From contig JAPKZJ010000075.1 of the NCBI GenBank assembly GCA_026393855.1, positions 1-58,708 on the forward strand: 58,708 bases of DNA, in the 5' to 3' direction. The notes under the pieces are model-generated. The model was not told where the DNA came from and ran no database searches. It saw only the letters and a list, made by a program, of their open reading frames with translations. How positions within the stretch are numbered: the first letter of the stretch is position 1; each line of letters opens with the position of its first letter. A program made the translations under genes and the position numbers. The DNA is from Candidatus Aminicenantes bacterium (GTDB taxonomy: Bacteria > Acidobacteriota > Aminicenantia > Aminicenantales > UBA4085). This document shows, one piece after another, positions 6,259 to 51,273 of this stretch.

Positions 6259-6816
6259 ATGAAGCGAGAAGCCGTCGAAAAAGCCAGGGAAAGGGCCGGC
6301 CGGATGCTGGATGCCGTCGGAATCGCCATTTCGCCCGCGGAACGAGCGGCGATCGAGGTCGCCGATCTCGGTCTCGGCGACCCGGATCACTACGGCCTCC
6401 AGATCGTGATCTACGAGAACAACGACCGCTACTGCGCCAAGGAGCTCATCCTCTTCCCCCGCCAGATCTGCCCGGAGCATCGCCATCCTCATTATGTCTG
6501 CCCCGGCGACACGGTTGAGAAGCCGGGCAAGCAGGAGACGTTTCGATGCCGTTGGGGGCACGTCTATCTCTATGTCGCGGGTGAGCCGACGCCTTCCCCG
6601 CAGGCGATTATTCCCGAGGGCGACGAGGCCTGCTTCACGGCCTGCCACGAGATCGTCCTCGAACCGGGCGATCAATACACCCTCTCGCCGGAGACGTTGC
6701 ACTGGTTCCAGGCCGGCGACGAGGGGGCCATCATCAGCGAATTCTCCACCACCAATACCGACGAATACGACGTCTTCACGGACCCCCGGATCAAGCGCCT
6801 GCCGGTCTACGAATGA
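6259..6816 (+). CDS. D-lyxose ketol-isomerase family cupin
   Basis: The 185-aa product matches the D-lyxose isomerase family, manganese-dependent cupins that interconvert D-lyxose and D-xylulose (and often D-mannose and D-fructose). Metal ligands are visible: H74 and H76 in CPEHRHPHY, E93 in KQETFRCRWG, and H148 in SPETLHWF. There is no signal sequence, so it acts in the cytoplasm. Length is about that of the short family members. The ATG follows GGAGAGGG. Its stop overlaps the next gene's start (ATGA), so it is translationally coupled to two URO-D-family genes, which suggests a joint role in sugar metabolism. The exact sugar is not shown by the sequence. Confidence 0.85.
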   Translation: MKREAVEKARERAGRMLDAVGIAISPAERAAIEVADLGLGDPDHYGLQIVIYENNDRYCAKELILFPRQICPEHRHPHYVCPGDTVEKPGKQETFRCRWGHVYLYVAGEPTPSPQAIIPEGDEACFTACHEIVLEPGDQYTLSPETLHWFQAGDEGAIISEFSTTNTDEYDVFTDPRIKRLPVYE

Positions 6817-7970
6817 GCGGCGGGGTCATCGAAATCGGCGTTCCGGTCGAGGAGATCGAGGCCCGCCGGGCCCGGGTGGAGAAGGCCAAGCGGTTCGAGC
6901 GGCCCGACCGGGTTCCCGTCCTGCCCGCTGTCGCCCATCGCTACCTTATCCCCCAGGTCGGCGTGTCTTTTCGCGAATACTACGCCGATCCAGAGACCAT
7001 GCTGCGGACCCAGATTCTGGCCCAGAAATGGCTGATGGAAAACATCCGCACGGACGCCCACGACATCACCGGACCCTGGGTCGGCGCCTGGACGGACTTT
7101 CAGAACACCTTCGAAGCCGGCAGCCTCGGCGTCCCCATCGTCTTCCCGAATGACGACATCCCCTGGGTCGGCCCCGGCTGGGTCAAGGACGAGACGGACC
7201 TGCGGCGGCTCGAAGCGATCAACTATGTTCATACCGGGATCAACGCCCGCCAATTCGAATACCGGCGGGCGATGATGACGGCAGCCGAAAAATATCCGGT
7301 GCGATTCCGGGGCGGGCCGGTCTTCTTTCCGGGCGCCGCACCGCACCTGACCCGTACCTCGGACGGCCCCTTCGGCGTTGCCGGCGACCTCATGGGCAAC
7401 ACCGAGCTTTTCCTGGCCTGTGCCGAGCGGCCCGACTTCGTCCGCGAGCTGCTACGGATCGTCGTGGATAAAATGATCGAGTACCTGGACGCCTGCTGGG
7501 CCGAGGAAGGGCGGACGGGCCCCCGTGATATCGCCTGGACCGACGACCTGGCGGTCTCGCTGTCGCGGGCCATGTTCGAGGACCTCGCCCTGCCGGCCAA
7601 TCGGCGCCTACGGGACCATTTCGACGGCTGGGCCATGCTCCATATGTGCGGCCACTCCGATCATCTGCTGGAGACCTTCCGCGACGGATTGCGCATCGAC
7701 GAGCTGCAGGGCTTCGGCTGGGAAGTCGATCTCGACCGGATCGCCGAGGTCATGGGCGGCCGGGTCGTCCTGCTGGGCAACGTCAACCCGATGCTGATCC
7801 GAAGCGGAAGTCCGGACGCGGTCCGCGAAGCAACCCGACGGGTCATCGAGAAGCTGGCCCCGCTCGGCGGGTTCATCGTCCAGGACGGCAACAACATCCC
7901 GCCCGGATCGCCGGTCGCGAACATCAACGCCATGATGGAAGCAGCCGAGAGGTACGGCCGGTATGAGTGA
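6813..7970 (+). CDS. URO-D-family protein (MtaA/UroD-like), copy 1
   Basis: The 385-aa protein has the uroporphyrinogen decarboxylase/MtaA fold signature: an N-terminal helix-rich opening (KRFERPDRVPVLPA), and H277-x-C279-G in LHMCGHSD followed by GNVNPMLI and a C-terminal PPGSPVANINAMMEAAERYG. The H-x-C-G pair corresponds to zinc ligands of cobalamin methyltransferases such as MtaA and is absent from true HemE. The third zinc cysteine expected near the C-terminus is not seen (FIVQDGNNI). It is unlikely to be heme-pathway UroD. It overlaps the lyxose isomerase gene by 4 bases and the next URO-D gene by 8. Function unknown; a sugar-linked role is inferred from context. Confidence 0.8.
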   Translation: MSGGVIEIGVPVEEIEARRARVEKAKRFERPDRVPVLPAVAHRYLIPQVGVSFREYYADPETMLRTQILAQKWLMENIRTDAHDITGPWVGAWTDFQNTFEAGSLGVPIVFPNDDIPWVGPGWVKDETDLRRLEAINYVHTGINARQFEYRRAMMTAAEKYPVRFRGGPVFFPGAAPHLTRTSDGPFGVAGDLMGNTELFLACAERPDFVRELLRIVVDKMIEYLDACWAEEGRTGPRDIAWTDDLAVSLSRAMFEDLALPANRRLRDHFDGWAMLHMCGHSDHLLETFRDGLRIDELQGFGWEVDLDRIAEVMGGRVVLLGNVNPMLIRSGSPDAVREATRRVIEKLAPLGGFIVQDGNNIPPGSPVANINAMMEAAERYGRYE

Positions 7971-9072
7971 CCGCAAAGAATTCTTAACCCGCCTCTGGAA
8001 CCTCGAGAACGACGAGCGGCCGGGATTTCTGATCGGCTACACCGGGCCGCGGCTCAAGGGCGGCACGCCCGTCCGCAGCGCGCTCTTCTCGACTGAGGGC
8101 CGGGACACGGTTCGGAAGCGCCTGCTCGACCCCGATAAATTCCTCGAAGCCCAGATCGAGGAGATCCACGGCCAGATGGCGTTCAAGGGCGATCTCGTCC
8201 CCGCTCTCTGCCCGACGCTGGGGGTCATCGCCATTCCCTCCGCTTTCGGATGCGAAGTCGTCTGGTGGGAGAACGACTTCCCCTCGGTCCGGCCGCTCGA
8301 GGGGGACGACCCTCGCCGCATGCTCGATCTCGCGATTCCGGCCGTCGCCGACGGCGTGCTCGGCCGCATCCTCGCCTATTCGCGCCTGTTTGTCGAACGG
8401 CTGGGCGGCCGCTACCCGGTCCGGCTGGCCGACATCCAAGGGCCGCTGGACAACGCCGCTCTCGTCATGGGCCACACCCAGCTCTTCGAGGCCATGCTGA
8501 CCCATCCGGCCGAGGTTCACCATCTGCTCGGGATGATCACCGACCTCATGATCGCCTTCGCTCGGGCCCAACGGAATCTCGTCCGGAGCCTGGGCGCAGA
8601 GTTTGTCCCCAGCGGCTTTCAGCCCTGGATCCCGGACGGGCGGGGCCTCTCGATCGCCAACGACACCGGGGTCATGCTCCCCCCCGCCCTGCACGATGAA
8701 TTCGCCGTTCCCTATATCAACCGCTTATCCGAGGAGTTCGGCGGCGTCTACATCCACTCCTGCGGCAACTGGACGCATCTCTTTTCGAGTCTGGAAAAAG
8801 TGCGGGACTTGCGGGGGCTGGAATTCGGGGCCAGCGAGACGCCGTTTGGCCCAGTGGCGGAGCGCTTTGGCGGCCGCATGGTGCTGGCCTGCCGCGTCGG
8901 CCAGCACAAAGACATCCGCTACGACGGCATGGCGGACTACGTGCGAAAGATTATGGCCGCGCGGACGACCAACCGCGGGCTGTTCATCCACGTCGACATC
9001 ACCAACGGCTTGCTCGACGACTCCTGGCCCGAAACGGACCTCGACGAAATCTACGGGCTTCTCGCCCCCTGA
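7963..9072 (+). CDS. URO-D-family protein (MtaA/UroD-like), copy 2
   Basis: The 369-aa protein is a diverged paralog of the gene before it. Near residue 265 it has HSCGNW (H265, C267), the H-x-C-G motif of the URO-D/MtaA family. The N-terminus (DRKEFLTRLWNLENDERPGFLIGY) and C-terminus (DITNGLLDDSWPETDLDEIY) differ from copy 1, and the usual C-terminal zinc cysteine is missing. The start overlaps the upstream gene by 8 bases (stop TGA inside the second gene), so the three genes from 6259 form one coupled operon. Neither copy has a signal sequence. The paired copies may form a heterodimer, but that is inference. Confidence 0.78.
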   Translation: MSDRKEFLTRLWNLENDERPGFLIGYTGPRLKGGTPVRSALFSTEGRDTVRKRLLDPDKFLEAQIEEIHGQMAFKGDLVPALCPTLGVIAIPSAFGCEVVWWENDFPSVRPLEGDDPRRMLDLAIPAVADGVLGRILAYSRLFVERLGGRYPVRLADIQGPLDNAALVMGHTQLFEAMLTHPAEVHHLLGMITDLMIAFARAQRNLVRSLGAEFVPSGFQPWIPDGRGLSIANDTGVMLPPALHDEFAVPYINRLSEEFGGVYIHSCGNWTHLFSSLEKVRDLRGLEFGASETPFGPVAERFGGRMVLACRVGQHKDIRYDGMADYVRKIMAARTTNRGLFIHVDITNGLLDDSWPETDLDEIYGLLAP

Positions 9073-9174: not shown

Positions 9175-10152
9175 ATGACCCAATCCAACGTCCCCGCCAG
9201 CGTCGCTGCCCGGCTGGTCGGCCGCAACGGCGAATATCTAGGCAACGAATTCTTCATCAAAGGCGACGATTTCCTGATCGGCCGCGCCTTCGAATGCCAC
9301 CTCATGCTGAACGACGAGATGATCTCGAGCCAGCACGCCCGGATCGTCCGTTCGGGTGAGCATTACGAGCTGCAGGATCTCGGATCGACCAACGGCACCT
9401 TCGTCAACGGCGAGAAGATCGCCAAGAAGGTCCTGCGGACGGGCGACAAGCTCATGTTCGGGGCTTTAGAGTTCGAATTCTCGCGTCCGCTCGACGTCAG
9501 CCGGACGATGGTGGCGACCCCCGAGGCCATGGCCGAGCTGGCTAAGGCCAAGGCGCATGCCATCCCGGCCGCGGCTCCGGCTCCGGCCCCGGCCGCGGCG
9601 ATGGAAGTCGTCAAGATCCCCAAGGCGGCCCCAGGCCATCCGCTGGCCGGGCTGATCCCGGGCGTACTGATGGGCCTTCTCATTGCCTACATCGTGCCGC
9701 TCCTGGCTGCGGCTTTCCAGTTAAATAAGCTGGGCAATTTGACCGTTACGGGCGTCGGACAATTCTTGAAAAGCTGGGCCGGCACCTTCCCCGGCATGCA
9801 TACGCATGTCGGATTGGCATCCTTCGACCTGAGCAACATGACCAGCTTGATTGCCCTCATCGGCTTGGCCCTAGGGCCGTTCGTAGGCGGATTCCTCGCC
9901 CGCCGCTTGGGCCGCCGCGGTCAGATCGGTACAGCCTTGGCATTTGCCATCAGCTATGCCGTTGTCGCGCTCATCATCCAGATCGCCGTGTTTAAAGCGG
10001 CTTTCTCGGATCTGCCCTTGTCCTACCCGGGAATCGTTCGTTCGTTGGGCCCCTGGGGTAATTTCGTAGTCGTCCTGGCGTACTTCGTAGGGGTGGTTTT
10101 CGTCATCAGCCTCATCGGGGGGCTTTTCGGCCGAAGCCGCAAATCGGACTAG
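9175..10152 (+). CDS. FHA-domain membrane protein
   Basis: The 325-aa product has an N-terminal forkhead-associated domain (about residues 12-100) with the phosphothreonine-binding residues R37 (IGRAFECH), S51-S52 and H54 (SSQHARI) and N73 (LGSTNGTFVNG). An Ala/Pro linker (about 125-140) leads to about four membrane helices (about 157-178, 220-238, 250-275, 295-316). FHA domains read phosphothreonine marks, so the protein may tether a Ser/Thr-kinase signal to the membrane. No kinase gene is in this window. A good promoter and an AAGGAGG ribosome binding site support the start. The helical part resembles no transporter family I can name. Confidence 0.85.
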   Translation: MTQSNVPASVAARLVGRNGEYLGNEFFIKGDDFLIGRAFECHLMLNDEMISSQHARIVRSGEHYELQDLGSTNGTFVNGEKIAKKVLRTGDKLMFGALEFEFSRPLDVSRTMVATPEAMAELAKAKAHAIPAAAPAPAPAAAMEVVKIPKAAPGHPLAGLIPGVLMGLLIAYIVPLLAAAFQLNKLGNLTVTGVGQFLKSWAGTFPGMHTHVGLASFDLSNMTSLIALIGLALGPFVGGFLARRLGRRGQIGTALAFAISYAVVALIIQIAVFKAAFSDLPLSYPGIVRSLGPWGNFVVVLAYFVGVVFVISLIGGLFGRSRKSD

Positions 10153-10230: not shown

Positions 10231-12564
10231 ATGAGACCTTATGATACGCCGCGGGAATTCGACTGGGTCAGGCGCGCCTTAGGCTGGAAGACGGAAGGGG
10301 GCACTCTTCGCTTCGACCTCGAAACGGCCTGGGGCCGGAGCGCCCGACTGTCGTTCCGTTTCATTGCCGTTGATATCGTCCGCTGGACGTTCGTCCCCAA
10401 AGGCTCGGCGGAACCCCGCCCGACGGAATCGATACACCCTTCGACCGGCTTCAAGCCGCCGGCCTGGCAGGTTCGGCCTCTGCCGGGCGGCTTAGAGGTC
10501 ACGGGTCTGCAAGGCGGGCTGAAAATCGATTTCGATCCCTGGGTCATGCGTTTCCTCGACCGCCGCGGCCGGCCCCTGCTGGCCGAAAATCCCGCGGACA
10601 TGGACGGCCTCGGCCATCCCTTCGTCCCGCCCCTCGGCTTCGTCCGCGACAGCCGTGCCGTCTCCCGGGTGACCCAGTCCTTCAAGCTCGGTCCGGACGA
10701 GCATCTCTACGGCCTGGGCGAAAAGTTCACCCGTTTGGACAAGGCCGGCGCCCGGCTCGTCTCCTGGACCCAAGACGCTCTCGGTTCGACCAGCGAACGA
10801 TCCCACAAGAACGTCCCGTTCCTCTGGAGCACCCGCGGCTGGGGCCTATTCGTCGACGGCGGCGCGCGGATCGCCTGGGACTTGGGCGCCCAAAGCACGC
10901 AATCGTTTACCGTGACCGCGGATCAAGGGACGCTGGATGCCTATGCGATCTTCGGTCCCGGGCCGGCCGCGATCCTCAAGCGCTACGCCGACCTCACTGG
11001 CTATGCGCCCGTGCCGCCGAAATGGAGCTTCGGGCTTTGGGTGTCGTCGGGCGGGACTTATCGGACCCAGGCCGCCATCGAGGCCCTCGTCGACGGATTG
11101 GGAGAGCACGGCATCCCGGCCGGCGTCGTCCACATCGATCCTTGGTGGATGCAGTGGCGGCGATACTGCGATTTCCGTTGGGACCGCGACGCCTTCCCCC
11201 ACCCCGACAGCCTGATCCGCAAGCTTCACGGCCTCGGGCTCAAGCTCTGCCTCTGGGAGCATCCCTACGTCTCGATCGAGAGCGACTTGTTCGAGCTGGG
11301 CAAACGCGAGGGCTTCTTCCTCAAGCGGCCTGACGGCGGAGTTTACGTTATCGACTATGGGCTGTCGCTGGCGCCCCGGCCGGACGGCATCGTGCGGCGG
11401 GCCCGGCGCGCGGACTCCTGGAACGCCCGCGTCGCGATTATCGATCTCACCAATCCCGAGGCGCGCCGGTGGTTCAAGGATCTTCACCGGCCGCTGCTCC
11501 GGCAAGGCGTCGATGTCTTCAAGACGGACTTCGGGGAGGACATTCCGGCCGACGCCGTCTTCCATGACGGAACGACCGGCGCGACACGGCATAATCTCTA
11601 CCCGCTCCTCTACAACCAGGCCGTGGACGAGGTGACGCGCGAGGAGCGCGGCTACGGGCTGGTCTGGAGCCGCTCCGGCACGGCCGGAAGCCAGCGCTTT
11701 CCCGTGGCCTGGTCGGGCGACCCGGCCGCCGACTGGGACAGCCTGGCGGCCACCATTCGGGGCGGACTGTGCGCCGGGCTCTCCGGCATCCCGTTCTGGA
11801 GCCACGATATCGGCGGCTACCGGGGCAAGCCGACGCCCGATCTCTATATCCGCTGGGCCCAGTTCGGGCTGCTCTGCTCACACAGCCGGATGCACGGCGA
11901 CGGACCGCGCGAGCCGTGGATCTTCGGACCCGACGCTCTGCGGATCGTCCGAAAATTCGTCCGCCTTCGCTATCGGCTTTTCCCGTATCTCTACAGCCTG
12001 GCCCATGAGGCGGCGGCGACGGGCCTGCCCGTAATGCGGGCGCTGCCGTTGGCCTTCCCTGATGATCCGAGCGTCCATGGCCACGACCTCGAGTTCATGC
12101 TGGGGCCTTGGCTTCTCATCGCCCCCGTCGTCGATCCGTCGGGGACAAGAACCGTCTACCTACCTCACCTGGATACAGCCAAGCAGGGGACAAAAGGCGC
12201 CAAGGGCGAAAAGAGAAAAACGGCCCCTTCACCGGAAAACGGCGAGGGCGGCGAGTGGATCGATTATTGGACCGGCGACCGATACGCCGCCGGACAGAGC
12301 CTCAAGCTCAAGGTGCCCCTATCGCGCATCCCGATCTTCGTCCGGGCCGGGGCCATTCTGCCGATGATGGCCGACGCCGAGCGGATTCCCGAAGGGCCGA
12401 TCGAAAAGCTGATTATCCATATCTACGCCGACGCCAAGTCCTCGTTCACGCTTTTAGAGGACGAGGGTCGGACGCGCTTCGATCTCGATCGGCGGGGAAA
12501 CCATTATGCGTTGGCCGTGAAAGGCTGGCGACCAAAGCACGACCTTAAGATCATCTGGCGATAA
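10231..12564 (+). CDS. GH31 glycosidase (alpha-xylosidase / alpha-glucosidase type)
   Basis: The 777-aa enzyme has the GH31 order: an N-terminal mutarotase-like beta domain (about 1-240), a (beta/alpha)8 catalytic domain (about 255-600) and C-terminal beta domains. The nucleophile is D433 in VFKTDFGED and the acid/base D497 in AWSGDPAADW, 64 residues apart as in the family. KTDFGE is the motif of YicI-like alpha-xylosidases, although alpha-glucosidase activity is also possible. No signal sequence is seen, so it probably works in the cytoplasm. A charged, low-complexity insert of about 25-30 residues (around 650-676, GTKGAKGEKRKTAPSPENG) splits the usual VYLP and WIDYW pair. The ribosome binding site at ATG 10231 is weak. 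Confidence 0.9.
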   Translation: MRPYDTPREFDWVRRALGWKTEGGTLRFDLETAWGRSARLSFRFIAVDIVRWTFVPKGSAEPRPTESIHPSTGFKPPAWQVRPLPGGLEVTGLQGGLKIDFDPWVMRFLDRRGRPLLAENPADMDGLGHPFVPPLGFVRDSRAVSRVTQSFKLGPDEHLYGLGEKFTRLDKAGARLVSWTQDALGSTSERSHKNVPFLWSTRGWGLFVDGGARIAWDLGAQSTQSFTVTADQGTLDAYAIFGPGPAAILKRYADLTGYAPVPPKWSFGLWVSSGGTYRTQAAIEALVDGLGEHGIPAGVVHIDPWWMQWRRYCDFRWDRDAFPHPDSLIRKLHGLGLKLCLWEHPYVSIESDLFELGKREGFFLKRPDGGVYVIDYGLSLAPRPDGIVRRARRADSWNARVAIIDLTNPEARRWFKDLHRPLLRQGVDVFKTDFGEDIPADAVFHDGTTGATRHNLYPLLYNQAVDEVTREERGYGLVWSRSGTAGSQRFPVAWSGDPAADWDSLAATIRGGLCAGLSGIPFWSHDIGGYRGKPTPDLYIRWAQFGLLCSHSRMHGDGPREPWIFGPDALRIVRKFVRLRYRLFPYLYSLAHEAAATGLPVMRALPLAFPDDPSVHGHDLEFMLGPWLLIAPVVDPSGTRTVYLPHLDTAKQGTKGAKGEKRKTAPSPENGEGGEWIDYWTGDRYAAGQSLKLKVPLSRIPIFVRAGAILPMMADAERIPEGPIEKLIIHIYADAKSSFTLLEDEGRTRFDLDRRGNHYALAVKGWRPKHDLKIIWR

Positions 12565-12633
12565 AGCTCGTTCGCGGTTTGACCCGCCGGGTGGCCTGTG
12601 ATAAAAAACCGCTTGAAAGCTCCGCACTTGGAT

Positions 12634-13521
12634 ATGCCTAAACGGCTTTTTATCCTTCTGGCGGCATCCGCCGTCGTAGCCATCTCGCTAGCCCACGCCC
12701 AACAGAAAACCGATGTTACGCCCGCTCCCTCCTACCGGGAAGACGCGGACTGGAACCGCCGCCATCCGGGCTTGGACACGGACGTCTCCCTTTATCTCAA
12801 CCAGTGGCGGGATTCGCCGCCTCACGAGGGTCACGGCGGGCTGGTCGAGCGGGAGATTCTCCGGCGGGGCGATCCCTTCAAGCCGGCACAGAAAGGCGCG
12901 GTCCTGCGGTTTCTGAAAACCTACAACCAGGCCGAGCTGGCCGGCGGGGCGGAGACGCGGGATTACAGCGATCCTCGCGAGCAGGTTTTTCTATACGTCA
13001 TGAACGGGCGCGGCACCCTGACGATCAAGGACAAAGCCGTCGCGCTCGAGGACGGATCGGCCGTCGTGATCCCGCCGGGAATCACATATCGACTGAAAAA
13101 CCCCGGCCTGGCGCCGCTCGAGCTCCTGCTAGCCGCCGAGGAGACACCGGCGGATTTCGTACCGAACCGGACGATCTCCGTCGGACGATGCGGCGATTCC
13201 CTGCCGCTGCTGGGGGCCCATTGGGCCCATATCGCCCGGCCGTTCATCTACGACATCGAGCCGAAATTCCGGAACCCCATGGGCTTCGTCCCCGTGTCGA
13301 TCGACGAGTTCGATATCGCCCAGCCGCACTCGCATCCGGCGGCCGCGGAGGAGATCTGGCTCCAGGTCAAGGGGCGCAGCCTTCTTCTGCTCGGGAACCG
13401 GCTTTTCAACCAGGAGCCCGGCGAAGCTTTCCTCGTTCCTCCGAACAATCTGGTTCCGCACAGCTCAATCAACGCCGGCGGTGAGCCGATGCTTTGGCTG
13501 TTCTTCGGATGCCGGAAGTGA
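12634..13521 (+). CDS. Exported bicupin protein, paralog 1
   Basis: The 295-aa product starts at ATG 12634, which gives a clean signal sequence (MPKRLFILL to SLAHA, then QQKTD); a GTG at 12598 would spoil it. Two cupin domains follow. The second (about 215-295) keeps metal ligands: QPHSHP with a Glu further on (EEIW) and a last His in VPHSS. The first (about 105-185) has lost its histidines. Roughly half the residues agree with the gene at 14632, including the shared N-terminal HPGLDTDV and EGHGG blocks. It opens a seven-gene operon encoding exported proteins and a transporter. Enzyme activity (dioxygenase, isomerase or binding) cannot be assigned. Confidence 0.8.
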   Translation: MPKRLFILLAASAVVAISLAHAQQKTDVTPAPSYREDADWNRRHPGLDTDVSLYLNQWRDSPPHEGHGGLVEREILRRGDPFKPAQKGAVLRFLKTYNQAELAGGAETRDYSDPREQVFLYVMNGRGTLTIKDKAVALEDGSAVVIPPGITYRLKNPGLAPLELLLAAEETPADFVPNRTISVGRCGDSLPLLGAHWAHIARPFIYDIEPKFRNPMGFVPVSIDEFDIAQPHSHPAAAEEIWLQVKGRSLLLLGNRLFNQEPGEAFLVPPNNLVPHSSINAGGEPMLWLFFGCRK

Positions 13522-13531
13522 GAGGAAACCA

Positions 13532-14593
13532 ATGAAACGCGAGCCCGCGCCTTGTGACCGGCGAACGTTCCTCAAAACGGCCGGCTGGGGTATGGTCGGA
13601 GCCGGCCTGGCTGGGAGCCCGTTGTGGAGCGGCGCCGGGAGACCCCGGATCGAGGCCGCCGCAAATCCGGCCGCCCGCCCGGCGGTGGGCGCTGCCTCCC
13701 GGGTCGCTCTGGTCAAAGGGCGGGATCGGCGCGAGATCATCTTCCAGTCGCTCAAGCTCATCGAGGACGACGTTTGGGCGGCCGTCGACCGGAAGAAGCG
13801 CGTCCTGATCAAGCCCAACATGGCCGTGGACAAGAACCCCCTGGCCATCACCCACGTCGACGCCGTGCGGGCGGTCCTGGAATTTCTCAAGCCGCGCTGC
13901 ACGAAGCCGATCACAGTAGCCGAGTCCGGCGTCCTCAACACCGCGGCCGGCTTCAAGGCCAACGGCTACGAAGCATTGGTCAAGGAATTCGGCGTCTCCC
14001 TCGTCGATCTCAACGCCTCGCCTTCGTGGAAGCCCTATTACGTCTTCACCAAAGATCAGGCGCCCCAGCCGATCCGGGTCTACGCCGATTTCGTCGATCC
14101 CAACGTCTGCCTCATCTCGCTGGCCCGGATGAAGACCCACGACACCGTGCTCGTCACACTCTCTCTCAAGAACGTGCTGATGGCCGCACCCGTCAACGAC
14201 TACAAGAAAAGCGACAAGGGCTTTCTCCACGGCGCGGAGAAGTCCCTCAACGACATCATGCACTTCAATCTCTTTCACATGGCCCACCGGGTCTGGCCCG
14301 ACCTGGCCGTCATCGATGGCTTCGAGTCGATGGAGGGCCACGGCCCGGCCTGGGGAACGCCGCTCGACACGCGGCTGGCCTTGGCCAGCCGCGATCCGCT
14401 GGCCGCGGACATCGTCGGCACAAAAATCATGGGCTTTGATTCGTCGCGCATCCTCTACCTCAGGACCATGGCCGAGGCGGGGCTGGGCGCGGGCGATGTG
14501 GAAAAAATCCCGATTCTGGGGACGCCGCTCGAGTCGTGCCTTTTCAAGTTCAAGGCCGGCCCAAAGATGACCGAGATCTATCATCTGACATAG
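13532..14593 (+). CDS. Tat-exported DUF362 protein, paralog 1
   Basis: The 353-aa product begins at ATG 13532 (AGAGGA upstream), 10 bases after the bicupin stop. The N-terminus has a twin-arginine signal (DRRTFLKTAGWG) and a hydrophobic stretch, so it is exported folded, often a sign of a bound cofactor. The body matches DUF362: VALVKG, VLIKPNM, THVDAVRAVLEFL, ARMKTHDTV, SLKNVLMAAP, and AADIVGTKIMGF near the end. It has no ferredoxin-type cysteine cluster, unlike some DUF362 proteins. The biochemical role of the family is unknown. A paralog lies four genes on (17502-18581) with the same operon, which suggests that two related substrates or subunits are handled. Confidence 0.85.
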   Translation: MKREPAPCDRRTFLKTAGWGMVGAGLAGSPLWSGAGRPRIEAAANPAARPAVGAASRVALVKGRDRREIIFQSLKLIEDDVWAAVDRKKRVLIKPNMAVDKNPLAITHVDAVRAVLEFLKPRCTKPITVAESGVLNTAAGFKANGYEALVKEFGVSLVDLNASPSWKPYYVFTKDQAPQPIRVYADFVDPNVCLISLARMKTHDTVLVTLSLKNVLMAAPVNDYKKSDKGFLHGAEKSLNDIMHFNLFHMAHRVWPDLAVIDGFESMEGHGPAWGTPLDTRLALASRDPLAADIVGTKIMGFDSSRILYLRTMAEAGLGAGDVEKIPILGTPLESCLFKFKAGPKMTEIYHLT

Positions 14594-14631
14594 AGGGCCG
14601 GGCCTGCGCCCACGGCCCCCGAGGAGTGATC

Positions 14632-15534
14632 ATGAAGCAAATCGTTCCCGTTCTGAGCGGAGCCGTCTTGCTGGCCATGGCCCTGGCCTTCGGCCAGGTC
14701 CAGTCGAAGCTCACCGTCGAGCCCGACCCGTCATTCGCCGAAGACGCGCTGTCCAATCACCGCCACCCCGGCCTGGACACGGACGTCTACCTCTACATCA
14801 ACCACTGGCGCAACTCCGTGCCTTACGAGGGCCACGGCGGCTTCATCGAGCGTGACATCCTGACGCCCGGCGACCCGCTCGCCCCGCCCAGGCGCGGAGC
14901 GGTGCTGAAATACATCAAGGCCTACAAGCGGGCGGCCCTGGAGCCCCGCACCAACTCCCGGCCTTTCAAGAGTGCCGACGAACAGGTCTTCCTCTACGTC
15001 AACGGCGGCTCGGGCAAGGTCGAATCGGCGGGCCAATCGAAGGAGATCAGCGACGGCACGGCCGTCTTTATCCCGGCCGGCGTCGAGTTCCGCGTCCTCA
15101 ACCCGAGCGATTGCTTCCTGGAGGCGATCATGGTCGTCGAGGGGACGACACCCGGCTTCGTCCCGAACAAGACGATTTCCGTCGGGGACTACCATAACTC
15201 CGTACCGAGCATCGGCATGCACTGGGCCCACATCGGGCGCGGCTTCGGCTGGGACACGCCGCCCAAGTTTGCCAACCCGGTGGGCTTCGCCATCGTCTCC
15301 ATCGACAAGTTCGACATCGCCCAGCCGCACGTCCACGGCCCCGGCTGCGAAGAGATCTGGTGCCAGCTCAAGGGCACAAGCCTCTTGTTGCTCGGCAACC
15401 GTCTCTTCCACCAGGAGCCGGGCGAGGCCTTCCTGATCCCGCCGAACCGGAAAGTCCCCCACAGCTCCATCAACGCCACGGACGAGCCTATGCTCTGGCT
15501 GTACATGGGCAATCGCCACGACCAGGCCAAGTAA
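14632..15534 (+). CDS. Exported bicupin protein, paralog 2
   Basis: The 300-aa product starts at ATG 14632 (GAGGAG upstream) with a signal sequence ending near AFGQVQS. It aligns along its whole length with the bicupin at 12634. The C-terminal cupin keeps QPHVHG with a following Glu (CEEIW) and VPHSS, matching a 3-His/1-Glu metal site; the N-terminal cupin lacks histidines. The spacing of gene pairs (bicupin then DUF362, again with a cupin ahead of DUF362) suggests a block duplication followed by divergence. It would act in the periplasm. No reaction can be named. Confidence 0.8.
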   Translation: MKQIVPVLSGAVLLAMALAFGQVQSKLTVEPDPSFAEDALSNHRHPGLDTDVYLYINHWRNSVPYEGHGGFIERDILTPGDPLAPPRRGAVLKYIKAYKRAALEPRTNSRPFKSADEQVFLYVNGGSGKVESAGQSKEISDGTAVFIPAGVEFRVLNPSDCFLEAIMVVEGTTPGFVPNKTISVGDYHNSVPSIGMHWAHIGRGFGWDTPPKFANPVGFAIVSIDKFDIAQPHVHGPGCEEIWCQLKGTSLLLLGNRLFHQEPGEAFLIPPNRKVPHSSINATDEPMLWLYMGNRHDQAK

Positions 15535-15546
15535 AGGAACGATCCG

Positions 15547-17481
15547 ATGAGAAAACAGCGAACGATCACTGCATCCATCCTGGCGGTCCTGCTGGCCGCC
15601 TTCGTGCTGGCCGCACTCCCCGCCTGCGCCAAGAAGCCAGCTTGGGCGGCCAAGAACGATAAACTGATCACCGAGAAAAATATCGTCGTCCGCACCCGCG
15701 GCGACATCCCTTCGCGCGGGGCGGTCCCGAACCTGGCCGACGGCGTCATGACGACCCTGGCCTCGCTCCCCGAGGTCCTTTTGGCGCCCGGCGTCAAAGC
15801 CAAGATGTACTGGGCCAAGGGCAATCTCGTTGCCTGGCTGACCCTCGATCCGGGCGCCTCGCTTCCCAAGGAGACCCTCCCAGCCGAGCGGATCATGGTC
15901 GTCATGAAAGGCGCGGTCAGCCAGTTCCTCGGAGGAGCGAACGTCGAAATGCGGGCCGAGACGCGCGAAGACCCCGACGGCACCCACGGCCGGACACCGC
16001 GTAACGACCTCCTGCTCCTGGAGAAAGGCACCGAGAACGCCGTGCAAGCCGGTGTCGCGGGGGCCGAGATCGTCGAAGTCTACTGGCCGGTGCGGGCCGA
16101 TTATTTGGCCAAGGCTGGGGTCGCGGACGCTCCCCCGGCTCCGGACGTCCAATTCCCGATCGCGCCCACGGTGACGCCCGGGACGGTCTACGACCTGAAC
16201 GACATTCAATTCACCGAGCTTCAGCCCGGGGCCAATTCCCGCCTGATCGGCGGGCACGGCGCGCAATTGAGCTTCCTGCGCATGGACCCGGGGATGAACT
16301 TCGCCGCCCACCTCCATCCCGAGGCGCAATTGATGTGCGTCCTGCGCGGAGCCATGGACGAGCTCATCCTGGACGCCACGGTGCCGATGAAGACGGGCGA
16401 TCTGCTTTACCTGCCGGCAACGATGGTCCACGGCGGGGCGGTCGGCGAAGTCGGCTGCGACGTCCTCGACGTCTTCTTCCCGCCGCGGCCGGATTACACG
16501 GCCAAGAAGGAAGCGCGCGACGCGGCCTTCCACGCCGTCATCCCCGCCTCGGCCGAGGTCGAGCTCTTCGTGGACGGGAGCAAGAGCGGCCCTGGCTTGA
16601 CCTTCAACGAAGGCCCCAAATGGCTTGCCGGCAAGCTCTATGTCTCGAGCATGTTCTTCGACCAGAAATGGAACGGGAGCCCGGCCAAGAGCAAGACGGT
16701 CGAGGTCGATCCGGACGGAACCTACCGCGTGATCTCGAAAGGCTTGCAGACCAACGGGCTGATGCCGCTCCCCAACGGCAACCTGGCCGTCTGCGACATG
16801 TTCGGCCACCGGGTTGTTGAGATGACCGTCAAGGGCAAGATCGTCAAGACGCTGGCCTCGACTTTCGAGGGCAAGCCGATCGACGGCCCCAATGACATCG
16901 TCACGGACGCCAAGGGCGGGATCTATTTCACCGACCCGCAGTTCACGCCCGAAGCCAAGAAGTTCCAGCCCGGACGGGCCGTTTATTACATCCGGCCCGA
17001 CGGAAAGCTCGTCCGGATCATCCCGCCCAACGACTTCGCCATGCCCAACGGCATCCTGCTCAGCCCGGACGGCAAGACCCTCTACGTCAACAACACCTAC
17101 GACAACGAGTCGTTCTGGAACGTGGACTCGGACAAGGACAATTGGATCTGGGCCTTTGACGTCAAGGACGACGGCGGTGTCGCGAATCCGCGCAAATTCG
17201 CCCTGCTCGTCCTGACGCCCGAAGTCGTCGCCCGCAAGGGCCGGTCGAGCGGCGCGGACGGCATGACCATCGACGCGAACGGCGGCCTCTATGTGGCCAC
17301 CTACATGGGCGTCCAGGTGTTCAGCGCCAAGGGCGAATTCCTCGGGATCATCAACACACCCGTCTATCCGGTTAGTTGCTGCTTTGGCGGCGACGACATG
17401 CAGACGCTTTTCATCGTCGGCTACGACAAGATCTTTAAGGTCCAGACGGCCGTCAAGGGCCTGAAGTACGGGCCGAAATAA
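15547..17481 (+). CDS. Exported cupin / SMP-30-gluconolactonase fusion, probable lipoprotein
   Basis: The 644-aa product has a lipoprotein-type signal (ALPACAKK, likely lipidated at C26). Two cupin-like domains (about 45-185 and 190-320) come next; the second has HLHPEAQ and MVHGG, with Gln where the usual metal Glu would be. Residues about 335-644 form an SMP-30/gluconolactonase beta-propeller with metal-site phrases FNEGPKW, DGPNDIV, FTDPQF, MPNGILLS and ADGMTID. The family hydrolyses sugar lactones or related esters. Fusion of bicupin and lactonase is unusual and implies the two steps act in turn on one sugar-acid-like molecule. The start follows AAGGAA, 12 bases after the preceding gene. 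Confidence 0.85.
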   Translation: MRKQRTITASILAVLLAAFVLAALPACAKKPAWAAKNDKLITEKNIVVRTRGDIPSRGAVPNLADGVMTTLASLPEVLLAPGVKAKMYWAKGNLVAWLTLDPGASLPKETLPAERIMVVMKGAVSQFLGGANVEMRAETREDPDGTHGRTPRNDLLLLEKGTENAVQAGVAGAEIVEVYWPVRADYLAKAGVADAPPAPDVQFPIAPTVTPGTVYDLNDIQFTELQPGANSRLIGGHGAQLSFLRMDPGMNFAAHLHPEAQLMCVLRGAMDELILDATVPMKTGDLLYLPATMVHGGAVGEVGCDVLDVFFPPRPDYTAKKEARDAAFHAVIPASAEVELFVDGSKSGPGLTFNEGPKWLAGKLYVSSMFFDQKWNGSPAKSKTVEVDPDGTYRVISKGLQTNGLMPLPNGNLAVCDMFGHRVVEMTVKGKIVKTLASTFEGKPIDGPNDIVTDAKGGIYFTDPQFTPEAKKFQPGRAVYYIRPDGKLVRIIPPNDFAMPNGILLSPDGKTLYVNNTYDNESFWNVDSDKDNWIWAFDVKDDGGVANPRKFALLVLTPEVVARKGRSSGADGMTIDANGGLYVATYMGVQVFSAKGEFLGIINTPVYPVSCCFGGDDMQTLFIVGYDKIFKVQTAVKGLKYGPK

Positions 17482-17501
17482 ACCCGGACGGGAGGATGAA
17501 C

Positions 17502-18581
17502 ATGGCCGATCGTTTTGCACTCCAACGCCGGGATTTCCTGAAGCGAATGGGCGGCGCCATCGGCGCGGCGGCGCTGGGAGGGAAAGCCTTGCTGACCCCG
17601 CTTCGAGCGGACGCGGCCGAGCCGGGACGGCCTGACGACCCTTACGGGCAAATCCATTTTCCCATCAACCGACTGGGCCAGGCCGCCCCCCAGGCCCGGG
17701 TTTCGCTGGTCAAAGGGGAAGGCCGCTACCAGATCGTGACCCGCTCGCTCGAGCTGATCAAGGACGAGATCCTGGGCTCGATCGGGAATAAAAAAGTCCT
17801 GATCAAGCCCAACATCGTCCTGGCCGACTGCGCCGCCTGCGTCACCCACGTCGATGCGATCCGGGCCGTTCTGGATTTCATCAGCCCCGTCGTCAAAAGC
17901 CAGATCCTGATCGCGGAATCCAGCTTCCACAACACCATGGAGGGATTCCGCTACAACAACTACCAGCGGCTGGAGAAGGAATACAACGCCCGCCTCTTCG
18001 ACCTCAACACGGACGGCTTCCAGAACCGCTATGTCCTGGGGCTGGACAACAAGCCCTCGCGCATCCGGATCGTCAACTCGCTCCTGGATCCCGACCTCTA
18101 CGTCATTTCGGTGGCCCGGATGAAGACCCACAACTACGTCTTTGTCACCCTGTCGATCAAGAACGTCATCATGGCCTCACCCCTCAACGACTACAAGGTC
18201 AACGACAAGGGCCTGATGCACCAGGCGGCCCCGGCCCGGAACGACCTGCTGCACTACAACATGTTCCACATCGGGCAGGAGGTCTTCCCCGATCTGGCCA
18301 TCATCGACGGCTACGTCGGCATCGAGGGCAACGGCCCGGCCTGGGGCGCGCCCATCGCCTCGCGGGTGGCCCTGGCCAGCCTGGACGCCGTGGCGGCCGA
18401 CGTCACCGGAACCCGGGTCATGGGCTTCGATCCCCGCATCGTCAACTACTTGAACGTCATGGCCGAAGCCGGGATGGGCCAGGGCAACCCCGACAAGATC
18501 GAGCTTCTGGGGACGCCGCTCGAAAAGTGCATCATGAAATACAAGCCCAACGAGAAGATGGCGGAGCTCTACAAGCTATGA
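17502..18581 (+). CDS. Tat-exported DUF362 protein, paralog 2
   Basis: The 359-aa product starts at ATG 17502, six bases past GGAGG; an ATG at 17496 would be too close to it. The Tat signal is QRRDFLKRMGG. The DUF362 blocks match those of the gene at 13532: VSLVKG, VLIKPNI, THVDAIRAVLDF, ARMKTHNYV, SIKNVIMASP and GTRVMGFDPR. Two adjacent cysteines near residue 107 (ADCAACVTH) are not present in paralog 1. The stop codon overlaps the BASS transporter start (ATGA), so the two are translated together and probably act on the same compound. Confidence 0.85.
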   Translation: MADRFALQRRDFLKRMGGAIGAAALGGKALLTPLRADAAEPGRPDDPYGQIHFPINRLGQAAPQARVSLVKGEGRYQIVTRSLELIKDEILGSIGNKKVLIKPNIVLADCAACVTHVDAIRAVLDFISPVVKSQILIAESSFHNTMEGFRYNNYQRLEKEYNARLFDLNTDGFQNRYVLGLDNKPSRIRIVNSLLDPDLYVISVARMKTHNYVFVTLSIKNVIMASPLNDYKVNDKGLMHQAAPARNDLLHYNMFHIGQEVFPDLAIIDGYVGIEGNGPAWGAPIASRVALASLDAVAADVTGTRVMGFDPRIVNYLNVMAEAGMGQGNPDKIELLGTPLEKCIMKYKPNEKMAELYKL

Positions 18582-40724: not shown

Positions 40725-41738
40725 TTAGGCCAGGGCCGCCTCGGCCATGGCGGCCACGTTGCGAGGCGGGATGTTGGGCAGGATGGCCTCGTGGCTGGGG
40801 CTGCAGATCCAGCGCGGCCCGAAGAGCCCGCGCAGACGCCTGACTTCGGCTCGGATCGCCTCCGGCGTGCCGTTGACCAGCAATTCCTGAGTATCCACAC
40901 CGCCCAAAAAAGCGATTTTTCCACCGAACTCCGCGGCCAGCCGCTCGGCCTCCATCCGTCCCGCCCTCGCCTGGAGCGGGTGCAGGCATTCGACACCGGC
41001 CTCGATAAGCCTGGGGATGACCCGGTAGATCGAGCCGCAGGAGTGGAGGATGACCTGATGGCCGGCCGCGTGGGCCTGGTCCGTCAGGCGCCGGAACCAG
41101 GGCAGGATGAACTCGTCGAAGTGGCGGGGGCTGATCAGGCAATCGATCTGGGTTCCGAAGTCGTTGCCGAAAAAATATCCGTCCATGAGGCCTCCGGCCC
41201 GGGCGAAGAACCGGCGGTTGGCTTCCAGATAGAATTCGCAGACCCGGGCCGTGACCGCGTGGACAACCTCGGGGTGGGTCTGCATCTTGATGAAATAAGC
41301 CTCCATGCCGAGCAGGTCCATGACGTTGTGGAAGAAGGGGGCCCAGAAGCCGCTGGCCCGGTAGTAGGAGCCGGTCGCCTCGAGCTCGGCCAGGCATTCG
41401 TCGAAGTTCAGGTATTCGGGGTCGGGCCACTCAAAGGCGGCGACATCGGCCTCGGTCTCCGCTCCCGCCAAGGGTCCCGCCTCGCCGTGGAACCGCTTGA
41501 ACTCCGAGGCGTCGAACAGCCCGCGCCCGCGCGGATCGCGGTATCCGGAGGCGCGGTATTGCGGCGTGATCCAGCGGAAATCGTCACCCAGCTTGCGCCG
41601 CAGCTCCTCCTCGCCCCCCGTGCCGAAGTAGCGGTGCAGGATCGGCCAAGTCTCGGGATGCGGGTTGCCCAGCCAGAAGCCGCAGCGGTCGACGGGCCGG
41701 CCGGCAATGATCCCGCGGACGATGTCGCGGCCGGTCAT
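40725..41738 (-). CDS. URO-D-family protein (MtaA/UroD-like), copy 3
   Basis: The 337-aa protein has H232-x-C234-G (ILHSCGSIYRVI) and, near the C-terminus, RWICSPSHEAILPNIPPRN. This copy alone keeps a cysteine at the place of the third zinc ligand of MtaA-like methyltransferases. It is clearly of the URO-D/MtaA family and unlikely to be HemE. The start overlaps the GH2 gene's stop by 4 bases (ATGA), so it is the last gene of an ABC-transporter/GH2 operon. No corrinoid-binding gene is in the window, so a cobalamin methyl transfer is not proved. Confidence 0.82.
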   Translation of the reverse strand: MTGRDIVRGIIAGRPVDRCGFWLGNPHPETWPILHRYFGTGGEEELRRKLGDDFRWITPQYRASGYRDPRGRGLFDASEFKRFHGEAGPLAGAETEADVAAFEWPDPEYLNFDECLAELEATGSYYRASGFWAPFFHNVMDLLGMEAYFIKMQTHPEVVHAVTARVCEFYLEANRRFFARAGGLMDGYFFGNDFGTQIDCLISPRHFDEFILPWFRRLTDQAHAAGHQVILHSCGSIYRVIPRLIEAGVECLHPLQARAGRMEAERLAAEFGGKIAFLGGVDTQELLVNGTPEAIRAEVRRLRGLFGPRWICSPSHEAILPNIPPRNVAAMAEAALA

Positions 41739-44700
41739 GGCCCGTTTTTTTTCGGCGACGCGGCCGTCAGGGTCCGCGGCGCTAAAAACTTCAAGGCGTT
41801 CGAGATGAGCCGGGCCGCCATGACGGGCTGCAGGCCGTCCCCGGTCCCCTTAAGCCCGGCCAGAATCGGCAGGCCGAAGAACAGGACCCGGCCTTGGCCC
41901 AGCCGGGCCGCGAAACCGGCCGCCCCCACGTTGCGATCGTGATCGCGGCCGTAGCCGATGAAGACGTCGACGTCCCGTCCCTCGACGATGACGCCGGAAG
42001 TCCCGTCCACGGGAATTTGATAATCGCTTTTCATGGCCTGGTCGGCCGGCAATCCGTCCAGAACCGGATGCTTGCGGCTGAAACACCAGGAACCCATCCA
42101 AGGCGCCCGCGACTCGCCCACTGCGGCCCGGAACTGGAACGCCCCGGCCTCGGCCAGGCGTCGGGCATAGGCCTCCACGGCCTCCTGCCCCTCCGGCAGG
42201 ACGAGGAGCGAGGCTCCGCGCCGGACCCGCGCCAGCACGGCCTCATCCAGAGCCGTCGGCCGGGCATAGGCGCCCCAGAGGAGCCCGGCTTTGTCCAGGT
42301 ACGGCCGACCGCCGCAGTTGACGGCGATCGTCTTGCTGCCCGCTTCAATTTTAATGGCGCTGAACTTGGCGTAGTTGACGGTTCGGCGGGGCACGGTGAT
42401 CCGGACGATCCCATCGGCGGCCTCGACGTCGAAGACGCGGTCGACCGCTTTCCGGATGCCCCCCGCAGCGGCGGAGACGTCGAAATCCTTGAGCACCGTC
42501 TGGCCGTTGACGGCCACGTCAAAGACACGCTTGCCCGGCCCGCTCAAAGTGACTTCGGCGAACCGCAGGGTGACCCGGGCCGGGCCTTTGGGCAGGCCGT
42601 CGAAGACGAATTCGAGGTTCTCAGCATCGCCCCAGCTCTCGGACCTGTAGAGCTCGTCGTCGTCGGTGCCTTCGATCTCCATGGCCGGGTCGATATCGGG
42701 CGAGGTCCAGCCGTACAACAGCCGCTCGCCGGCGATATAGAGATCATATTCGCGGGCCGGGTTGTAAGCCTCAAAAGCCACCCCCGGGAACTTCGCTTGC
42801 AGGGCGGCCGTGACCTTGGGGCCGGCAGCGATCACGGCCGCGGTCCGCGGCATGGGCGCGGACCGGCCCGCCGGATCGACGACAGGGATCTCTTCGCTCC
42901 AGGAGATTTCAGGCATCCCCTCGACGACCGCGAAGACGCGGTAGACCCCTTCGAACTCCAGGACCGGCGTTTCGATACCGGCCTTGACCGGGTAGACGAA
43001 GCGGTCTTTGTGAAACGGCGGAATCTCGAAAATCCCCAGCTCGGTCCGGGCATAATGCGGGTCCTCGAGCCAGATCGTCATCCGGGATCCGGCCGCAGTC
43101 CCCGTCTCGTTCAGGAGATAGGCGTCCACGACGGCCCGGCCGCCGAGCGGGAAGACGGCCGCCCGCGGCTTAAGCACAGGACGCAGCGGAGCCATCCGCC
43201 GGGCCATGAGCTGAGGATTCCCCTTGAACCGCCGCAGGTTGTCGACCAGGCCGGAGTGCTGCTCCATGGCCGTCGACTCCCAGCCGCTGACGACCAGCAG
43301 ATCGTTGGATTCCGACAAGCGGGCCGTCTCGATGACCCGGCCCCAGAAATCGTAGCTTTTATCACCGAGGGCCAGGAAGAGCTTCTCGGCCGTCGGGAAA
43401 GCGTCCCGGAAATCCCAGCGGGTCAGGAACTTTTCATAGGCCGCCAGGACTTGCTCGTGGTCCTCCAGGTCGTAGCTCGACCCGGCCCGACGCTTGATTT
43501 CGCGGACCATGCCGGCGTGGTTGTCCGGGACGCCGACACCCAGCATCTCGCCCCAGGCCACGATCTCCTTGTCGACGGTCGAGCGGTGGGTAAAATCATC
43601 GGGGCCCTTATAGAGCGCGTCCGTCCAGACGCCCGGCCCGCCCACCGTATGTTCATCGCGCCAGCCGGAGACGCCGTCGCCGCCGTCGGCCAAGATGCTC
43701 TCTTCATAGGGCTTCATCCAGGCCTGGTTCACGGCCGGAACGCCCGACTTGAGCAAAACGATCCGGCTGGGGTCTTCGGCGTGGACACGGCGCAGGAGCC
43801 GGGCCGCGCGCGGATTGCGCAGGTCGGGGTGGATCTCGTTTTGCAATTGGTAGAGCGCCAGCGAGGGCCGGCTGCGGTTTTGGCGGACCATCCGGAGGAC
43901 CTTCTCCTCCATGTAGCGTTCGGCGAAGCTCGCCGCATCGCCCCGCGCACCCGAGAGGTCGAGCCGGCCTGCGGGCGATTTGGCGTAGAGCGGGAACGTC
44001 TCGCCCAGGGCGGACTGACCGCCTCCGGGCTCCATGATCCGCAGCAGGCCCAGGCGGTCCTGGGCGTCGAAGACCTCGGCCTTGCCGATGGCGCGGTGGA
44101 AGTGGAGCATGGTCAGACCGAGCGTCTTGGCCGACCAGACCTCGCGCTCGGCCAGCTCGGGCGAGGGCCACAGGCCGTTGAAGCCCCAATAGCCCCAGGA
44201 GATGGCCGAGACCGGCCGGATGCGGCGCCCGTTGAGCCGCAAAACGGCGTTCGTGCCGACGCCGTCGGCTTCGAACCAGCGGAAGCCGAATTTCGTCTCG
44301 GCCGCGTCGCGCCAGGACTCCGGAGTCGACGCGGCGGGGGCGGAAGGCGCGTCGCCCGCCGCGGCCGGACACGAAATCCGGGCCCGCAAGACATACAGCT
44401 TGGGCGAATCCAGGTTCCAGAGCTCGGCCGTCACGGCCTCCAGCGTTTCCGATACATCCACCGTGCCGCCGGCCGGCATCGCCACACGCTTCGCGCGTGA
44501 AGCAAGCGCGGCCCCGTCCCTGGCAGGATCGATGATCTCAAAGACCAGATCGCCTTGGACGGGCGAGGGCGAGGCGTTGCGAACCCGGGCGGCGGCCCGG
44601 ATGCGGCGGACCTGGGGGGTGTTCAAGGCCCAGACATCCTCGATGGAAACCGGATCATGGGCGCTCAGTGCGAGCCCGCGATCGAGACCTCCGAAGCCGT

Positions 44701-50264: not shown

Positions 50265-50280
50265 GGCCTCGGCTCCGGGG

Positions 50281-51273
50281 TCACTTGCCGGCCGCCGTCA
50301 GCGAGGCCAGCAGGGTTTGGATATCGGCCGCGGTTAGACGCTTGGCGCTCTTTTCCAGGAACCCGCCGAAAGCCGCGATCTCGCCCGCGTTGGCCGGGAA
50401 GCCCGTGTTGGCGCCGGAGTCGGTGCTCGTGGCGACGACTTTCCCGTCCAGGTCCAGGGCGGCGAACCAGGGGATGCCCGACTTCTCGGCGCCGGGGTAG
50501 TCTCTCTTCATGACCAGGCCGCCGTTGGTCCGGTCCTGGTCGATCTTGAGGTCGACAAAATCCTTCTTGAGCAGGGCGGCGATTTCGGGCTGGGCCATCC
50601 AGGCTTCGAGCTTCTTGCACCAGCCGCACCAGGGGGCGCCGAAGTGCATGAAGACGCGGCGGCCCGAGGCCTTGGCCTCGGCCAGTCCCTTGGCCAGGAG
50701 GACGGAGGCGTCGAGGTAGGCGGCCTTGTTCTTGACCAGAAAATCGACGACCTTTTTGGGATCGTGCCCCTGGCCCGCTTCGAGGCTGTTCGTGTCCTGG
50801 TTGGCGACCACGTTGCCGGCGCCGTCGAGGACGGTCAAATAAGGAACGCCGGCGCTCTTGAAGCCTTCGGTATAGGCTTTGTTGTACCGGTCGGCCACGT
50901 CCAGGTTCTTGTTGAAGTTGCCGATATCGACCATCACGACGTCGTATTCGTAGAGAAGCACCTTGGCAATAGCCTGGTTTTCGTTGAACAGCTTGTGGAG
51001 CAGGCGGCACCAGCCGCACCAATTGCCTCCCCATTGGATCAGAACCCGGCGGTTTTCCTTGGCCGCGCGGGCCAGGGCGGCGGCGATATCGGCCTTGGCG
51101 TCGGCCTTCTCGTCATAGATCGGTCCCTCGGGCGCTATGGGGGCGGCTTGGGGCGCGGCTTGTTGCGCCGCACCCGTCTTAGTGGCGGGAATCGAGGCGA
51201 CTTGGCCGAAGGCCGACGCCGAAAGGGCGGCTGTAAACAGCATGATCACGAAGGCGGCGATTATTTTCTTCAT
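50281..51273 (-). CDS. Exported protein with two thioredoxin-like domains (CGWC twice)
   Basis: The 330-aa product has a signal sequence (MKKIIAAFVIMLFTAALSASAFGQ) and two thioredoxin-like domains with identical active-site motifs: CGWCRLLH (about residues 80-90) and CGWCKKLE (about 215-225). Cys-Gly-Trp-Cys is redox-active in thiol-disulphide exchange. A linker of about 40 residues lies between them. An exported double thioredoxin can reduce or oxidise disulphides in the periplasm. The following gene, after 16 bases, is a URO-D protein. The ATG follows AGGAGAAA. Confidence 0.85.
   Translation of the reverse strand: MKKIIAAFVIMLFTAALSASAFGQVASIPATKTGAAQQAAPQAAPIAPEGPIYDEKADAKADIAAALARAAKENRRVLIQWGGNWCGWCRLLHKLFNENQAIAKVLLYEYDVVMVDIGNFNKNLDVADRYNKAYTEGFKSAGVPYLTVLDGAGNVVANQDTNSLEAGQGHDPKKVVDFLVKNKAAYLDASVLLAKGLAEAKASGRRVFMHFGAPWCGWCKKLEAWMAQPEIAALLKKDFVDLKIDQDRTNGGLVMKRDYPGAEKSGIPWFAALDLDGKVVATSTDSGANTGFPANAGEIAAFGGFLEKSAKRLTAADIQTLLASLTAAGK

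Follow-up and report, generated by a model that had tools for sequence, protein, structure and literature searches.

The lyxose isomerase cassette and its encoded proteins

A 58,708-nucleotide contig of a Candidatus Aminicenantes bacterium (Acidobacteriota, UBA4085; assembly GCA_026393855.1, contig JAPKZJ010000075.1) was analysed over its whole length and is referred to here as the window. It represents contig C75 of the host assembly (G000), which comprises 3.68 Mb and is 95% complete. The window harbors a cassette of three genes coding for a D-lyxose isomerase (LI; P0001) and two proteins of the uroporphyrinogen decarboxylase (URO-D) family, termed U1 (P0002) and U2 (P0003). The open reading frames are located on the forward strand at positions 6259-6816 (LI), 6813-7970 (U1) and 7963-9072 (U2), and these coordinates bear out the successive overlaps of 4 and 8 bases described in the initial annotation of this DNA. 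Gene overlap is by itself ordinary; what exceeds chance is the conservation of the neighbourhood.

The 185 amino acid LI protein is a cupin-type isomerase with a match to the Lyx_isomer family of Pfam (PF07385; Bitscore: 39.1; cut-off: 20.8), and the solved structures nearest to it are the D-lyxose isomerases of Thermofilum (7nzo; e-value: 8.9e-72) and Bacillus (2y0o; e-value: 1.9e-57). It retains all of the catalytic positions K62, H75, H77, K86, E88, H143, E156 and D163, metal ligands included, and on the basis of the family score and these residues is assigned to the D-lyxose isomerases. The equivalent of R175 of the Thermofilum enzyme (TsLI) is R180, and arginine occupies this position in 37/38 aligned LI rows, the remaining row being truncated. 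LI thus resembles TsLI in its cupin family, catalytic residues and R175 equivalent, and differs from it in being linked to URO-D genes and, in relatives, also to corrinoid genes.

The products of the two downstream genes, U1 (385 amino acids) and U2 (369 amino acids), both match the URO-D family of Pfam (PF01208; Bitscores: 119.3 and 63; cut-off: 23.9), and are distant paralogues sharing 28% identity in alignment. In a tree of 118 URO-D sequences, U1 (33 sequences), U2 (20 sequences) and a third type found elsewhere, U3 (18 sequences), form separate well-supported clades (support 0.999 for U1 and 1.0 for U2), while two further URO-D proteins of the window, U4 and U5, fall into a mixed clade with other URO-D sequences. 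U1 carries the motif HMCG (H277, C279) and U2 the motif HSCG (H265, C267). The HxCG motif is kept across the full-length copies of U1, U2 and U3 that were looked at, while E. coli HemE is without HxC. Neither protein belongs to HemE as defined by TIGR01464 (cut-off: 302.95 bits), which scores 37.9 bits against U1 and does not match U2. Both also fall outside MtaA/MtbA, where the NCBIfam models PRK06252, TIGR01463 and MtaA (cut-offs: 244, 235.4 and 400 bits) give 80.6, 63.8 and 64.8 bits for U1, and 46.9, 28.3 and 19.3 bits for U2.

The AlphaFold models of U1 and U2 have mean pLDDT values of 92.6 and 91.7, respectively. For both, the best fold match (VIA) is the methyltransferase MtaA (4ay7; U1: Z 27.5, root-mean-square deviation 3.5, 320 aligned residues; U2: Z 23.5, root-mean-square deviation 3.4, 308 aligned residues), with HemE structures tied, and MetE and ApcE rank lower. 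CdmB is not among the fold matches listed for either model, by which nothing is excluded. A sequence search of the PDB does match U1 to CdmB (9rui; e-value: 3.4e-5), whereas U5 and U3, each searched singly, gave no match at 0.001. The HxC of the MtaA zinc site is kept in both U1 and U2, while the distal site of U2 is not resolved by the alignment. From family, clade and predicted structure we propose that U1 may be a corrinoid-linked methyltransferase and U2 its partner or a second methyltransferase.

Conservation of the gene neighbourhood

Orthologs of LI are present in 22 of the 59 genomes of the order, including G045, where the protein is only 32% identical. In 19 of these 22 genomes, LI has a URO-D gene no more than 4 kb away, against a chance expectation of 0.47 derived from URO-D counts and genome sizes; this estimate assumes random placement and independent genomes, so that its tail value should not be read literally. 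The nineteen comprise six loci (the window, G013, G018, G027, G034 and G050) and thirteen further loci; G018 was counted in spite of its fragmentary U1, and in G052 the U4 gene runs into the end of a contig. The URO-D partner varies, being of the U4 or U5 type in other families of the order, or U3. GH38 family glycoside hydrolase (GH) genes are found in 7/16 LI loci of a second locus set from the order, often beside a U4/U5-type URO-D gene. Furthermore, URO-D matches resembling U1 occur in all 22 LI genomes, as compared to 19/37 of the genomes lacking LI. In two Aminicenantes genomes (L047:6631-7907 and L033:3806-4890), LI and U1 are separated by a RES-domain gene and an HTH gene of opposite orientation, in an arrangement like that of RES/Xre toxin-antitoxin pairs (Pfam was run for L047 only).

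A scan of a species-genome collection yielded 36 U1-related loci, of which 33 were combined with the window and L030 into a set of 35, leaving out L062, L066 and L067 (≤36% identity to U1). U1 orthologues occur in Chloroflexi, Ignavibacteria, Planctomycetes and Calditrichaeota. Adjacent to U1 are U2 (21/35 loci), GH31 (16), U3 (13), LI (12), U4 (8), RbsD (7), a corrinoid protein and a PfkB kinase (5 each), an activation domain (3) and a homocysteine S-methyltransferase (1), while GH38 is found at four loci by strict bit score and at twelve by cluster. LI is present at 8/9 of the U1 loci in Aminicenantes and 4/7 in Bacteroidetes/Ignavibacteria, but at none in Chloroflexi (0/16), Planctomycetes (0/2) or Calditrichaeota (0/1). 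When the whole genomes of the U1 carriers were searched, LI was matched in 13/30, and in three of the carriers (G078, G082 and G086) LI adjoins U3 on other contigs.

Because these loci had been chosen by U1, a survey based on LI only was conducted on 294 genomes of the class that includes G074, a Melioribacteraceae genome carrying locus L050. LI is present in fifteen of them, with U3 beside it in ten, and in seven a cluster with a corrinoid protein, a Met_synt_B12 domain and a sugar kinase (broken in G074) is found. Three of the fifteen (G074, G085 and G086) were known beforehand; among the twelve new genomes U3 adjoins LI in seven and the cluster is present in four. The association of LI and URO-D genes is hence conserved both in the order and in other phyla, which answers the concern that it might be restricted to the source genome.

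A corrinoid protein is encoded together with other parts of the system at six Bacteroidetes/Ignavibacteria/Calditrichaeota loci. On a single strand, L050 carries genes for a corrinoid protein, a Met_synt_B12 domain, a homocysteine S-methyltransferase, broken PfkB pieces, RbsD, LI, U3, U1, U2 and GH31. Variants of this order are seen in L049, L063, L044 and L145, while a Calditrichaeota contig (L146) combines the corrinoid protein with LI and U3. LI, kinase, RbsD and U3 are co-stranded with short gaps in several genomes, and the Met_synt_B12 domain proteins represent the activators in these clusters. All twelve corrinoid proteins checked carry DxHxxG. A corrinoid protein is encoded with a putative URO-D-family methyltransferase in 7/15 LI genomes of the G074 class and at 5/35 U1 loci. 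In the Chloroflexi locus L056, about 2.6 kb separate U1 from a corrinoid protein gene that shares 4 bases with an FGGY sugar-kinase gene, and a pterin-binding fragment lies behind. The kinase gene of L050 (5447-5825) is split into two PfkB pieces that overlap and differ in frame, possibly through a frameshift or assembly error.

Proposed sugar demethylation and its alternatives

The host genome has 17 matches to PF01208, which were counted as about 16 genes because two of the pieces belong to U2. None of them reaches the HemE cut-off in this 95% complete assembly (best: 76.5 of 302.95 bits), and heme synthesis was rejected as the role of these genes, in agreement with the initial annotation. 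Judged by sequence, the URO-D copies would also not be expected to complement a hemE mutant. Two corrinoid proteins (PF02607) are encoded at loci away from LI, one of them on contig C62 directly downstream of a corrinoid reductive activator of the RACo type, while two further loci contain pterin-binding and MTHFR domains. The parts for corrinoid-dependent methyl transfer to folate therefore exist in this genome, though not beside LI. The C62 locus (L074; 6965-11137) encodes, in a row, the RACo activator, the corrinoid protein and a protein which by eye resembles MttB-type methyltransferases. Corrinoid proteins as a genome-wide marker proved uninformative, being matched in 56/59 genomes of the order.

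Methyl ethers are present on many polysaccharides and glycolipids. We consider it reasonably probable that the three genes belong to a pathway in which a methylated sugar undergoes corrinoid-dependent O-demethylation. In such a pathway, GH31 and GH38 glycosidases would release a methyl-ether sugar, from which the URO-D-fold proteins U1 and U2 (elsewhere U3 to U5) would take the O-methyl group and place it on the cobalt of a corrinoid protein, with a second enzyme handing the methyl group to tetrahydrofolate or homocysteine. LI would convert the freed aldose to a ketose, to be used by a kinase resembling ribokinase or xylulokinase, and the corrinoid protein of the host would act from another locus. 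U1 and U2 might be two methyltransferases I (MT-I), each acting on its own position, or else an MT-I together with a methyltransferase II. A more specific form of this proposal can be put forward only tentatively, namely an oxygen-independent, B12-dependent sugar-ether demethylase in which each member of the URO-D set might be specific for one position on the ring of a methylated pentose (or mannose). All would share a single corrinoid protein, the methyl group would go either to folate or straight to homocysteine, and the demethylated sugar would go to LI and a kinase.

The initial annotation had raised the possibility that the pair acts on a sugar to release or transfer a one-carbon group, which is supported by the corrinoid protein, Met_synt_B12 and, once, homocysteine S-methyltransferase genes located by LI and URO-D genes in other phyla, whereas no support was found for its alternative of a sugar lyase-like pair. 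The word pair is too narrow, as U1 to U3 represent three clades within a larger set, and U4 and U5 are also present in the window. The earlier interpretation of the cassette is thus partly supported.

The proposed chemistry has precedents. MtvB, OdmB, VdmB and CdmB are MT-I enzymes of the URO-D fold that methylate a corrinoid protein, with methoxylated aromatics or haloalkanes as the methyl donors (PMC13222342), and in modular corrinoid enzymes the methyl group can go to folate or homocysteine (PMC12478193). The three-component O-demethylases and dehalogenases (MtvB, OdmB, VdmB, MtoB and CdmB) resemble our proposal in that their URO-D-fold methyltransferase acts together with further components, namely a distinct corrinoid protein, an activator and another methyltransferase. 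The substrates named for them (PMC13222342) are methoxylated aromatics or haloalkanes, whereas the neighbours here are a sugar isomerase, a sugar kinase, RbsD and glycosidases. They also differ in that several URO-D clades occur together here, with a Met_synt_B12-type activator in the best-conserved clusters. U1 and U2 share with MtaA/MtbA the fold (4ay7) and the HxC motif; U1 differs in its identity of about 20%, its score of 80.6 of 244 bits and the asparagine at the place of the distal cysteine. The P450 demethylation of 6-O-methyl-D-galactose likewise strips an O-methyl group from a sugar, by an oxidative route yielding formaldehyde (PMC10033563), whereas the system proposed here would need no oxygen. 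This was the nearest published sugar demethylation found in the text available to us. A literature search, with most subscription journals outside its scope, returned no paper joining lyxose isomerase and uroporphyrinogen decarboxylase and no corrinoid or oxygen-free enzyme system for sugar demethylation. Since the search gave no corrinoid sugar demethylation, the proposal apparently represents known corrinoid chemistry on a new substrate class. If true, it would provide a role for part of the many unassigned URO-D paralogues of uncultured anaerobes, and it names a substrate class that could be tested with a panel of methyl-sugars.

Several observations weigh against this proposal. For both U1 and U2, the Z scores of MtaA and HemE are tied, so that the predicted fold gives no decision between the two. 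The distal cysteine of MtaA, which we take to be its third zinc ligand, aligns with asparagine in U1, so that the complete His/Cys/distal-Cys zinc site is not found there. Zinc is not required by every such methyltransferase, however, as CdmB has none (PMC13222342). Neither Pfam nor tblastn detected a corrinoid protein gene in the window, and none was found in those flanks of Aminicenantes LI and U1 loci that were fetched and scanned. U3, the clade tied most tightly to LI and the corrinoid protein, is likewise missing from the window, and a 40% relative of it is encoded on contig C140 of the host genome. Among the 35 U1 loci, a corrinoid protein is near U1 in only five and LI in only twelve. 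Three of the 22 LI genomes of the order (G044, G045 and G046) are without a nearby URO-D gene, and a hidden Markov model built from our own URO-D alignments also gave none there. LI is likewise without a nearby URO-D gene in 3/3 other Acidobacteriota examined, and no URO-D gene lies in the fetched stretch around LI in 5/15 genomes of the G074 class. Finally, GH38 suggests mannose while R180 suggests lyxose.

That the URO-D proteins are corrinoid methyltransferases with a non-sugar methyl donor, or act in the methylating direction, with LI and the kinase as neighbours in a general catabolic island, appears unlikely. The type 1 mlp clusters of Kountz and Balskus, for which methyl-selenide recycling and methionine salvage have been proposed, are a precedent, since each cluster encodes a corrinoid protein and an activation protein alongside several URO-D proteins that resemble MtaA (PMC10418091). 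The homocysteine S-methyltransferase and MetH-type activation domain of L050 and the occurrence of LI without URO-D genes would also fit. However, the available text of PMC10418091 makes no link to sugars, the activase there is of the Ram/RACE type rather than a Met_synt_B12 domain, and the definition calls for a corrinoid protein, Ram/RACE, and Mlp2 and Mlp3 whose identity to a characterised SCMT is >25%. U1 falls short of it at about 20% identity in structural alignment to MtaA (4ay7), the sole SCMT compared. The co-stranded LI, kinase, RbsD and U3 genes of several genomes and the recurrence of glycosidases, with GH31 at 16/35 U1 loci, also speak against this alternative.

The view that the genes are neighbours for regulation only, in a generic carbohydrate-utilisation island with no common pathway, is less probable still. 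The many GH106, GH31, GH38, cupin and SGL genes of the window, and the numerous Chloroflexi U1 loci that carry transporters and glycosidases in the absence of LI, are what it would lead one to expect. The tight overlaps, the presence of LI beside differing URO-D clades (U1/U2, U3, U4 and U5) in separate phyla, and the excess of URO-D genes near LI over the chance expectation in the order are not. Least probable of all is that the URO-D proteins are decarboxylases which remove C6 from a D-mannuronate-like uronate to give D-lyxose, which LI would convert to D-xylulose. On general chemical grounds, D-lyxose has the configuration of mannuronate minus C6; LI keeps the lyxose-specifying arginine, and the superfamily includes a true decarboxylase. 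Against this, the HxCG motif is not in HemE, none of the members tested passes the HemE model, and the corrinoid protein and Met_synt_B12 genes of the clusters have no evident role in decarboxylation.

Within the demethylation proposal, the sugar is best approached through LI and its neighbours. D-lyxose has the configuration of mannose at C2 to C4, so that lyxose and a manno-configured sugar can both hold. In the Thermofilum isomerase R175 is said to confer lyxose specificity, with mannose activity under 2% (PMC8378251), and the arginine of LI at this place therefore favours a pentose. As the same arginine occurs in LI genes without URO-D neighbours, it marks a subfamily rather than the cassette. 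The L049 kinase scores above the cut-off for ribokinase (TIGR02152; 382.1 versus 299.65 bits), the RbsD proteins of the clusters are of the RbsD/FucU family, and GH31 is closest to α-xylosidase with the cut-off not passed. Judged by sequence, these features and the LI arginine favour a pentose substrate. The substrate of LI is most likely D-lyxose and less likely D-mannose; the latter, a first guess from the GH38 neighbours, was demoted, not excluded, once the R175 equivalent had been found.

Further genes of the window

The α-xylosidase-like GH31 glycosidase is encoded on the forward strand at 10231-12564 (PF01055; Bitscore: 300.9), and follows U2 in other phyla too. Against the α-xylosidase model PRK10658 it scores 552 of the 606 bits required. 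An FHA-domain protein encoded between U2 and GH31 (9175-10152) shows no apparent connection to the pathway. U4, U5 and GH38 are located about 32 to 47 kb downstream of the cassette, all on the reverse strand. U4 (40725-41738) is of the HSCGS type (58% to the HSCGS reference; PF01208: 78 bits) and its type adjoins LI elsewhere in the order, while U5 (49017-50264) is of the HSCGA type (70% to the HSCGA reference; PF01208: 86.9 bits), which adjoins LI and GH38 elsewhere in the order. The GH38 α-mannosidase-family glycosidase (53864-56497; PF01074: 176 bits) is a relative of the GH38 protein whose gene adjoins U5/U4/LI in other genomes.

The U4 gene is overlapped by 4 bases by a gene on the same strand (41735-45352) for a 1,205 amino acid protein with malectin and GH2 N-terminal domains. 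The U5 gene is overlapped to the same extent by a reverse-strand gene (50261-51034) for a 256 amino acid protein with no Pfam match at 0.001. Furthermore, the forward-strand region 12598-18581 encodes two DUF362 proteins amid cupin proteins and an SGL/gluconolactonase-like protein, and a DUF362 protein is encoded near LI in L033 as well.

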